Source of the DNA: Alkalinema sp. RU_4_3
GTDB taxonomy: Bacteria > Cyanobacteriota > Cyanobacteriia > Leptolyngbyales > Leptolyngbyaceae
Assembly: GCA_012031975.1 (NCBI GenBank)
Contig: JAAUSA010000018.1
Span: 1 to 39,089, forward strand
DNA: 39,089 bases
Direction: 5' to 3'
Part shown: positions 16,248-20,606 of the stretch, piece by piece
Position numbering within the stretch: the stretch's first letter is position 1
How the letters are laid out: each line of letters starts with the position of its first letter
Position numbers and translations under genes: made by a program
Notes under the pieces: generated by a model
What the model was told of the DNA's origin: nothing
Seen by the model: the letters and a program-made list of their open reading frames with translations, nothing else
Databases searched by the model: none

Positions 16248-19200
16248 TTATACCCGCGCCACCGATCGCGCCGGCTCCGGCTCCACCCAAAAGGTCAACA
16301 CCGTCTCATCAATACCCTTCAACCGCAACGGCTCACCCTTCACCACGTCCTCATCCAAATAGTCCGCCACCGCCGCCGACACCAGAATCCGCCTCGGCTC
16401 CGCCTCCGTCTGCAACCGCGCCGCAATATTCACACTCGGCCCGATCGCCGTATAGTCCGATCGCGCCGCCCCCCCAAACATCCCCGACCACCGCCGTACC
16501 CTGGTGAATCCCACAACGGAAGGCCAGATCCGGCAATCCCTGCTCCAGCCACTTCTGGTTCAGCACCGCCAGCTCCCGGTACATCTGCCGCGCCGTCGCC
16601 ACCGCCCGCCGCACCTGCTCATTCGGCGTCAAATCCTCCGGCGCCCCAAACAACGCCATAATCGCATCCCCCATAAACTTATCCACAGTGCCGCCATTGT
16701 CAAAGACCGCCTGGGTCATCGCCGCCAAATACTCATTCAGCATCTCCGCCATACGCCGCGATCGCAACGTATTCGACAGCTGCGTAAAGCCCACAATGTC
16801 GCTAAACAGCACCGTCACCAGCCGAGGCTCAGGCCGCAGATCCAGAGTCAAATCCCCTGCCGCCGCCCGCTGCACCATCGAAGGCGGCAGGAAGCGCTTC
16901 AGCACCGACTCCGTCAGATAGGTGTTCAGCTCCGTCATCTTGCGCTCATTGGCCTTCAGCGACAGGAGATTCCGGACTTCAGCGAGCAACATACGATCGT
17001 TAAAGGGCTTCGACAGATAGGCATCGGCCCCCTGCTCCATCCCCTCTAGGTGGGTGTTTTCGTCCGCCTTAGCCGTCAGCAGAACGATCGGCGTCCCCTT
17101 AAGCTTCCCGTCCTGGCGAATCATCCGAATCATATCCAGACCCGACACCTGGGGCATCATCAAGTCCGTGACAATAAGATAGGGATTTTTCTCCTGGGCC
17201 ACCTTGAAACCCTCACCGCCATTGCGGGCCGTCACCACGCTATAGCCCTGCTGACGCAAAATGCTCGACACATAGCTGCGCAGATCCGGATTGTCATCCA
17301 CCACCAAAATCAACTGGCCCGTCTCACCCACCACCGTTTCACCGGGGATCGCCTCGGGATAGAAGGTATCGATCGGTTTGCCCAGATCCTCATCTTGGAG
17401 TTCGGTTTCTAAATCCGCCAGTTCGACGAGGGCGCGATCGGTCTGGACCTCAGCTTGGACTTCGACAATTTGATCGCTGGGCAAATGCTCCTTCCCAGTC
17501 TTCAGCCAAATGCTGAACAGACTGCCCTCACCATGGGTAGACTTGACCGTAATCTTGCCCCCATGCATCTCTACCAGTTCCTTCACCAGGGCCAGCCCCA
17601 GCCCCGTCCCTTCATAGCCCCGATTGGCCGACCCCTCCGCCTGCCGGAACCGCTCAAACAGATGCTCGATCTGATCGGCTCGAATCCCAATCCCCGTATC
17701 CGCCACCTCCAGCAGACATTGGTCCCCCAAGGGCCGCAGCACCACCGTAATCGTCTTCCCGGCGGGCGTAAACTTCATAGCATTCGACAGCAGATTGTAC
17801 ACCACCTTGTCGAACTTTTCGAGATCCAAATACATCGGCGGGCAGAAACTCAAATCCGCCGTCAGCCGAATCCCCTTCTTCTCGCAGTAGGGCCGGAAGG
17901 ACTCGACAATCTGACTGACAAAGTCCATCGTGTCACAGGGATGGAAACTCGGCTGCATCCGGCCCGCATCCAAGCGCTGCAAGTCCAAGAGCTGATTGAC
18001 CAGTCTGAGCAGGCGGCGGGAATTGCGCAGCGCGATCGACGCCTGATCAAAGGGCAAATCCTGTCGCCCCATCACCGCCGTCTCCAACGGCCCCACCATC
18101 AAGGTCAAAGGCGTCCGAAACTCGTGGGAAATATTCTGGAAAAACTCCGTCTTCTGGCGATCGGCCTCGATCAACTGCTCCGACTGACGGCGCATGGTTT
18201 GATACAAATTGGCCTGCTGCACGGCAATCGCCGCCTGGGCCGCCACCGTCTGGACCAGCTGCAATTCCGAAGGCTGCCAAAAGCGCGGCGCTTGGTTTTG
18301 GCGCAGGGAGATACTGCCGATGATCCGCTCCTCGGTGATCAACGGCACCACCAGCAGCGCCCTTGCGGGAGAGCGAAACTCCGGCGCATGGAATTCCGGA
18401 TGCTGGATCAAATCATTCAGCACCACAGGGGCACGTTCTACTAGCAGACGCTTAAGGACCGGGTTACCCTCGATCGGCACCTTAGACTTGGGCAGCGATC
18501 GCGTAATCGTGGTTTCGGCCGTAGCATTGCGGGCAGCTTCCAGGTCGATCACACCGAGGCTGGCATCGTAGAGCCCGACACACTGCACGTAGGCATCATC
18601 CTCGGTCCACATCGACAGGGCACAGCCATCGGCCTGGAGGGCCTGACCCAACTGCTGGGTGATCGCACTAAAAATTTCCTCGGGATCCAGACTCGATCGA
18701 ATCGAAGCCGTCACGGTGTTGATCAGCGATTCTCGCTTAGCCAAGGCTCGCACCTGTTCGTAGGCATGGGACTGGGCCAGCGCTAGAGCCGCCTGATCCA
18801 CGACCATCGCCACCATCTCCACTTCGTCTTCTTGCCAGGCCTTCACCTCGCCCCCACGATGGAGCGCCAACACCGCAATCGTCTCCCGCTGGGCAATCAA
18901 CGGCACAATCAAACTCGATCGCAGATTGAGATTTTGATAGACCTGCTGGGTTGCGGGATAGGCCGCCAGGGGGGACTCCGGGGCGATTGCATCCTCTAGC
19001 AATTCCACCTCGCCAACGGTCCAAATCGTCTGACTCAAGGGTTCAGAGGGCAGCAACGGGGAGATCTGCCCCTTGCTTTCCCCGGACCCGCAATACACCA
19101 CTCCATGCCCCTCCAACATGCCATTCTGGGCCGGACGGAGCAGGCAATAATCCATCTCGAAGGCCGAGCCAACGCTGCCCACAATCGATTTGATCAGCTC

Positions 19201-19686
19201 TTGATAGGTATGGGCACTGCGAATGGTCGTGGTGACTGTGTTGAGCAGGGTTTCGCGGCGGAGATTGCGGCGGAGTTCTTCTGTCCTGGCCTTGAGGACA
19301 CCATGGGTCTCCGAGGCCTGCCGCACCACCTGGCGGAGCTCTTCGTCATCCCAGGGCTTGGTGACATACTTAAAGACCTTGCCTGAATTGATCGCCTCGA
19401 CCAAATCATCGACGTCTGTGTAGCCCGTCAAGATAATCCGAATGATGTCGGGATAGCGCTTGGCCGTCAGACTCAGGAACTCTGTCCCGCTCATCAACGG
19501 CATGCGCTGGTCCGAAATAATTACGGCCACATCCCCTTCGCGCTCAAGAATCTCTAAGGCCATGGGGCCATTATCAGCTCTTAAGACACGGTACTCTCGA
19601 TGAAAGGTGCGATAGAGCAGATCTAGATTATCTGGTTCATCGTCCACCACAAGGAGCTTTTGCTTTTTACTCTCACGAGTGACCAT
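16248..19686 (-). CDS. cyaC: CyaC-type hybrid sensor adenylate cyclase (REC-GAF-GAF-HK-REC-cyclase), frameshifted
   Basis: About 1145 residues from the ATG at 19686. Order: REC1 (10-118, phospho-Asp about 59), two GAF domains (about 145-300 and 315-480), HisKA with His about 521 in NISHEFRTPL, HATPase_c (SNAMKFTPAG, ADTGIGI, GTGLGL), REC2 (about 770-890, Asp about 841) and a class III cyclase. The cyclase metal Asp residues are in LFSDIVGF (963) and FMGDAIMALF (1007), with the purine-binding Lys at 1003. After CGIHQGTAVVG the frame breaks at the CCCC run 16482-16485. Removing one base restores MFGGAARSDYTAIGPSVNIAARLQ. Thr in DYTAIG replaces the purine-binding Asp, which marks class IIIb, the bicarbonate-responsive group. 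The Asn and Arg of NIAAR are present. It makes cAMP in response to phosphorelay input. Domain order matches CyaC of filamentous cyanobacteria. Confidence 0.9.
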
Positions 19687-19822
19687 GCACCAATCTCCGG
19701 ATGCCAAAGCAAGATAAACAACAGGTTGAGAAGGTCATGTACTTGGGTTATGCGGTCCCAGTTGCCTGAGTCAACATAATCGTCCTTCTGTAGATAATTT
19801 GCCCAAGGAGCAGGGGGTACTA

Positions 19823-19838
19823 ACCTAAATCATTAGGT
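19823..19838. promoter_or_regulatory. short palindrome upstream of cyaC
   Basis: ACCTAA-ATCA-TTAGGT is a perfect 6-bp dyad with a 4-nt centre, 137 nt upstream of the cyaC start codon and 5 nt from the CRP-like site. It could be a second operator half. The binding protein is unknown. Confidence 0.3.
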
Positions 19839-19842
19839 CTAA

Positions 19843-19856
19843 GTGATATAAATCAC
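19843..19856. promoter_or_regulatory. candidate CRP/SyCRP1-type binding site upstream of cyaC
   Basis: GTGAT-ATAA-ATCAC is a perfect 5-bp dyad. It matches the inner ten bases of the cAMP-receptor consensus TGTGA-N6-TCACA, which cyanobacterial SyCRP1 shares; only the outermost T and A are missing. It lies 157 nt upstream of cyaC and 270 nt upstream of nrdR, in the divergent intergenic region. Feedback of cAMP on cyaC is an inference. Confidence 0.45.
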
Positions 19857-20007
19857 GGTTCTAACAAATGGCTGAGGCAATAGTACGGATAAACTTTCGT
19901 AGCTTATCCCTGCTGATTCCTTTCTCCATAATTCCCCGGATGGCAGGGCCGCTCACTATCTAAACTGATCCAGATTGTTCTAAAACCCAAGCAGAGTATT
20001 AGCTATA

Positions 20008-20065
20008 AGGGAACTCTGGATCAAATCCTCCCACTGATCCCCAATCGCTACATGTAGAGTTCCCT
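20008..20065. repeat. 10-bp inverted repeat upstream of nrdR
   Basis: AGGGAACTCT (20008-20017) is matched by AGAGTTCCCT (20056-20065), perfect arms 38 nt apart. The right arm ends 18 nt before the -35 element of nrdR. Purpose unknown: spaced operator sites or a remnant repeat. Confidence 0.4.
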
Positions 20066-20126: not shown

Positions 20127-20606
20127 ATGCGTTGTCCTCTCTGCTCTAACTTAGAAAATCGGGTGCTGGAGTCTCGTGCAGCAGACGGCGGACATAGCGT
20201 CCGTCGCCGTCGTGAATGTCTCAATCCTGCCTGTGGCCATCGGTTTACGACCTATGAGCGGATTGATACAGTACCGATTACGATCCTCAAGCGAGATGGG
20301 CGGCGGGAGAGCTTCGATCGCAACAAAATTATCTCGGGCCTCCAGCGGGCCTGTGACAAAACCTCACTCAGCTTTGACCAGGTTGAAGAAATTACCTCCC
20401 TCGTTGAGGCTACCCTCCAGAAGATGGCTAATCGGGATATTCCCAGTACCGAAATTGGTGAACTGGTCCTACAGCATTTGCGATCGCTCAATGAGGTTGC
20501 CTACATTCGCTTCGCCTCGGTCTACTCACAGTTTCAGAGTATTCAAGACTTTATGGTGATAGTGCGTCAGATGCAAACCTCCCCGGAGGCTGAGACCGAG
20601 GGCTAA
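20127..20606 (+). CDS. nrdR: NrdR transcriptional repressor of ribonucleotide reductase genes
   Basis: A 159-residue protein. An N-terminal zinc ribbon (MRCPLCSN, then SVRRRRECLNPACGHRFTTYERI) is followed by an ATP-cone domain (about 49-139; VPITILKRDGRRESFDRNKI, VAYIRFASVY). NrdR senses ATP/dATP and represses ribonucleotide reductase genes by binding NrdR boxes. The second Cys pair here is CLNPAC (C-x4-C) rather than the usual C-x2-C. The gene is divergent from cyaC and has its own promoter. I saw no NrdR box in front of it and there is no nrd gene in the window. Confidence 0.95.
   Translation: MRCPLCSNLENRVLESRAADGGHSVRRRRECLNPACGHRFTTYERIDTVPITILKRDGRRESFDRNKIISGLQRACDKTSLSFDQVEEITSLVEATLQKMANRDIPSTEIGELVLQHLRSLNEVAYIRFASVYSQFQSIQDFMVIVRQMQTSPEAETEG

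Follow-up and report, generated by a model that had tools for sequence, protein, structure and literature searches.

Does a cyanobacterial cell use cAMP to adjust the level of the enzyme that makes it? The question is raised by a palindrome in the window, that is the whole stretch of 39,089 nucleotides analysed here (contig JAAUSA010000018.1 of Alkalinema sp. RU_4_3). The palindrome lies between two divergently oriented genes. The minus-strand gene encodes a REC-GAF-GAF-HisKA-HATPase-REC-cyclase protein, the plus-strand gene NrdR. A sequence-only reading had suggested that a cAMP receptor might bind here in front of a cyclase gene. Transcriptional control of cAMP synthesis is poorly known in cyanobacteria.

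The palindrome, the cyclase gene and the receptor

The palindrome GTGATATAAATCAC (19843-19856) reads GTGATTTATATCAC on the cyaC (minus) strand. It is the sole copy within the whole window, where 0.03 copies are expected, and a match to its pattern appeared in three of 100 shuffled versions of the window. Its position was confirmed, as were that of a second palindrome next to it (ACCTAA-N4-TTAGGT, ACCTAAATCATTAGGT, 19823-19838, without strand) and the distance of 157 nt between the start of the core and the ATG of cyaC (19686). The supposed likeness to CRP sites also holds, as the exact GTGA-N6-TCAC core is present. Compared with the full TGTGA-N6-TCACA consensus, the box reads CGTGA...TCACT and deviates at two positions, the outer T and the outer A. 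Matches to the full consensus with two mismatches number 8 in the window versus 12.9 expected, so that, taken alone, nothing but the inner core stands out.

The minus-strand gene (16248-19686; REC-GAF-GAF-HisKA-HATPase_c-REC-class III adenylate cyclase) was rightly taken for an adenylate cyclase gene: its product follows the REC-GAF-HK-REC-class III cyclase order of CyaC-type proteins, and the best solved matches of the cyclase domain are 1WC1, the nearest, and 1WC0 (ADENYLATE CYCLASE), which we take to be Arthrospira CyaC. In the window, the frame of this domain is broken by an extra base in a GGGG run (16482-16485). Three relatives have intact genes that read straight through, and conservation of the frame downstream of the frameshift (16248-16514) remains good, so that the extra base would be a lesion of very recent date or else an error of the assembly.

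A suitable receptor had been called for by the sequence-only reading, and the same genome encodes one. Among its nine cNMP-binding proteins, L001 alone (233 aa from its ATG, with the cassette FGEM...PRST) has an RETVxR recognition helix. In an alignment with E. coli CRP its RETVTR falls on RETVGR, and these are presumably the residues that read the DNA. NtcA (L004) and the PtrA-like L009 carry an RVT(V/I)TR helix instead, RVTVTR in the case of NtcA. Each of the 23 further family genomes that were searched has an orthologue of this CRP, at 72-80% identity.

Conservation of the box and its assignment to cyaC

The family sample comprised 42 genomes, the window's own being the only one of its genus; counts of 41 omit genome G043, which has no full-strength cyaC match. 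An exact GTGA-N6-TCAC core lies within 600 bp upstream of cyaC in 8 of the 41 genomes, representing five genera (shuffle control: mean 0.28, maximum 3 in 300); in one of the eight (G004) this site is a second one, outside the module described below. Of the other motifs searched in the same 41 regions, the reversed control and the FNR type were each found in none and the NtcA type in three. When one core mismatch was allowed, 20 of 41 genomes scored versus a shuffle mean of 3.5, and since single shuffles reached up to 9, the strict count and the composite count that follows are preferred.

On the cyaC strand, the order of the module is CRP box, 17-19 nt, GTTAGAA, 13 nt, GGGCAA. Written as a composite (G[TC]GA-N6-TCAC, GTTA at 31-33 nt from the start of the box and GGGYAR exactly 20 nt from GTTA), it is present in 20 of the 41 genomes, which belong to 8 of the 19 genera. 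It did not occur in 200 rounds of shuffling, a figure which is no blind test as the composite was defined after inspection of the alignments. Across the class, nine of 388 genomes contain the composite when up to one mismatch is tolerated: eight belong to the family, all with the match at cyaC, and the ninth is a stray. The sequence-only reading had let its proposal depend on conservation in relatives, and on this point, as on that of the receptor, the result is in its favour.

The boxes themselves vary within narrow limits. Seven of the 20 genomes have GTGA and 13 have GCGA in one half, the latter presumably a weaker CRP half-site; GCGATC, which this half resembles, is a common cyanobacterial word. 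In one relative (G042) the box matches all ten positions of TGTGA-N6-TCACA. Throughout the 20 boxes the third base of the half-site is G with C opposite, and this bears on the idea of an NtcA site, or one of a PtrA-like regulator, which would make cyaC a target of nitrogen control. NtcA is encoded in the genome, GTG-N8-CAC differs from GTA-N8-TAC by one base per half, and NtcA has been reported to bind the cyaC promoter of Anabaena in EMSA (PMC12282138, in part). An NtcA site should have A at the third position of each half, but G stands there in 20 of 20 boxes and GTA...TAC in none, as expected for the RETVxR helix of CRP and not for RVTVTR of NtcA; the exact GTA-N8-TAC matches upstream of cyaC, 3 in 41, come from two genera. 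We therefore regard nitrogen control through this box as quite unlikely.

A quick maximum-likelihood tree was calculated from CyaC N-termini (41 family rows and five Nostocales as outgroup). On it the 20 box genomes group together as a single clade (SH-aLRT 95), and the box is absent from all 21 genomes outside this clade, a result that uses the box label from the composite defined after inspection. FACHB-63 is a clade member whose locus L169 carries the box. These 21 genomes are boxless at the module position and possess cyaC, though the family carries CRP. Five Nostocales cyaC loci that were examined (L165, L166, L168, L170, L192) lack the CRP core, the bipartite element and the nrdR neighbour alike. 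The distribution is consistent with a single gain of the box (or a single loss on the other side) followed by retention in 20 of 20 genomes, which is strong evidence for function. It also speaks against a chance palindrome without function: a single perfect core is in fact unremarkable on the scale of the genome, in which GTGA-N6-TCAC occurs at 62 places versus 32 for the reversed control pattern, but chance would hardly keep such a site clade-wide at nearly fixed geometry, and we give this explanation almost no credence. In all probability the palindrome is a genuine CRP binding site in front of the cyclase gene, retained within a group of related cyanobacteria.

The divergent neighbour nrdR (20127-20606, plus strand) had been thought to share the site. 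In 35 of 41 family genomes the examined stretch indeed contains it in divergent orientation to cyaC, so that the box might serve nrdR or both genes. Among box genomes the distance from the box centre to the start of cyaC ranges from 125 to 501 nt, and that to the start of nrdR drifts from 163 to 502 nt. Both genomes of one genus (g5) have retained the box although nrdR was not found within 1.5 kb. The nearly constant distance between box and GTTA, the variable distance to nrdR and the g5 genomes without nrdR in reach together place the box on the side of cyaC and not of nrdR; nrdR is probably no target, and a role of the box at this gene, alone or jointly with cyaC, appears very unlikely.

Between the CRP box and nrdR an inverted repeat, TGATCCA...TGGATCA, is located at 19966-20023. 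It also occurs on the nrdR side in two other genera, g15 (four of four genomes) and g19, its arms lying 41-51 nt apart from start to start, and is possibly a control element for the nrdR side.

A bipartite element downstream of the box

The second part of the module is represented in the window by GTTAGTA (19818-19824, minus strand), which stands here for the conserved GTTAGAA and follows the CRP box at 18 nt, and by GGGCAA (19799-19804, minus strand) 13 nt further on. GTTA-N16-GGGYAR is present in 37 of 41 family cyaC upstream regions, versus a shuffle mean of 0.095 and a maximum of 2. The analysis thereby brings to light a promoter-like bipartite element, GTTANA-N14-GGGYAA, which at the cyaC genes of the family is more widespread than the CRP box and may constitute either the core promoter or the fixed site of a co-regulator. 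The second palindrome, which overlaps the GTTAG element by two bases, is not conserved: among 41 family cyaC upstream regions, that of the window's own genome alone has an exact copy, one further genome has a copy with one mismatch and another a copy with two, both elsewhere in the region, and it was rejected as a conserved element.

The exact form GTTAGA-N14-GGGCAA was found in 33 of 42 family genomes, and its places outside cyaC appeared scattered when judged by eye. In the window's own genome GTTA-N16-GGGYAA occurs at 26 places versus 16 for the control, and no shared regulon was apparent by eye among the other places. The notion of a regulon marked by this element was rejected on these grounds.

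In letters and spacing the element is similar to the SigB promoters of B. subtilis, GTTTAA-N15(+/-2)-GGGTAT (PMC9847131, in part), and cyanobacterial SigF has been said to group with SigB (PMC2758279, in part). It differs from the SigB case in that the corresponding loci of the family lack it: the element was found in none of 30 SigB/F-type sigma loci and in none of ten pilin loci, where a single loose match was seen. Membership in a SigB/SigF-type promoter class is therefore unsupported. Furthermore, the window's own genome shows no enrichment of the core pattern of Synechocystis SigF (3+1 places versus 3+5 for the control), and a SigF-type promoter was rejected for GTTAGAA-N13-GGGCAA.

A predicted feedback circuit

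From the arrangement of box, element and gene we infer that CRP binds the box in vivo and that a feedback circuit exists, through which the cell probably tunes, by way of cAMP, the level of the cAMP-making enzyme. A cAMP-loaded dimer of the single canonical CRP of the genome would bind the palindrome in the cyaC promoter and, from its place upstream of GTTAGAA-N13-GGGCAA, would help RNA polymerase to start transcription of cyaC. More cAMP would then lead to more CyaC, so that the cAMP pool would reinforce itself in a positive feedback, with the signals sensed by CyaC itself acting as a gate. We consider it likely that cAMP-CRP activates cyaC from this box and thereby raises cAMP. Points against this reading are the GCGA half in 13 of the 20 boxes, the missing outer T and A of the window's copy, the 21 cyaC-bearing family genomes that lack the box and the frameshift in the window's own cyaC.

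Activation is the most likely sign, since in 20 of 20 cases the box is situated upstream of the conserved element, free of any overlap with it. If GGGCAA serves as -10 element, the centre of the box would lie about 58 nt upstream of the transcription start, in a class I-like position; if the TAGAA part of GTTAGAA takes this role, the centre would fall near -40, in a class II-like position. A sigma-70 -10 element was not recognised in the cyaC promoter, which makes the choice between class I and class II geometry uncertain, and both distances are activator positions.

The opposite sign has a precedent. At E. coli cyaA, cAMP-CRP represses from a site at the promoter, and the same could apply to cyaC, resulting in negative feedback. 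The passages of PMC3169459 that were consulted do not state the sign for E. coli. The two systems have in common that the cAMP receptor sits at the promoter of the gene for the cAMP-making enzyme. They differ in that the cyanobacterial enzyme is a multi-domain class III cyclase and in that activation is predicted for it, the box lying upstream of the conserved element without overlap in every one of the 20 genomes and its centre, whichever -10 element applies, falling where activators bind. Repression of cyaC is accordingly deemed unlikely, and activation is retained as the predicted sign.

CRP control of cyaC in a cyanobacterium did not come up in our literature search, in which sources were available in part. 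SYCRP1 and CyaC are summarised in PMC4284465 (in part). The cyaC box shares its TGTGA-N6-TCACA type and the kind of protein with the SyCRP1 sites of Synechocystis and with predicted cyanobacterial sites (PMC2633013, in part), and the parts of that article that were consulted do not list cyaC among the targets of CRP. In Anabaena the same gene is under transcriptional control by different regulators, FurA and NtcA, both reported at cyaC (PMC12282138, in part). With the box in all 20 members of the clade, feedback on cyaC becomes directly testable, and the sister genera, which have the same cyaC and CRP and lack the box, provide a natural comparison.

The crp gene of the window's own genome also has a CRP-type box, TGTGATCGGCGTCACT (locus L249, 1334-1347), in a 205-bp divergent intergenic region with its centre 78 nt before the crp ATG. 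Together with the box at cyaC and a non-sigma-70 promoter containing the new element GTTANA-N14-GGGYAA, it could make up a doubly positive, possibly switch-like circuit in which cAMP-CRP raises its own level as well as that of its ligand; we put this extension forward tentatively and regard it as doubtful. Predicted CRP sites of cyanobacteria include one at sycrp1 itself (sll1371; PMC2633013, in part). The exact core is absent from 36 other crp upstream regions, so that the window's own genome is the one case in 37, and conserved autoregulation of crp was rejected for this reason; matches with one mismatch were seen in two crp upstream regions at class level. A further protein of the genome, L002 (1411-2103), is a CRP paralogue which has kept the cAMP-binding cassette and lost the DNA-reading triad of the helix-turn-helix.
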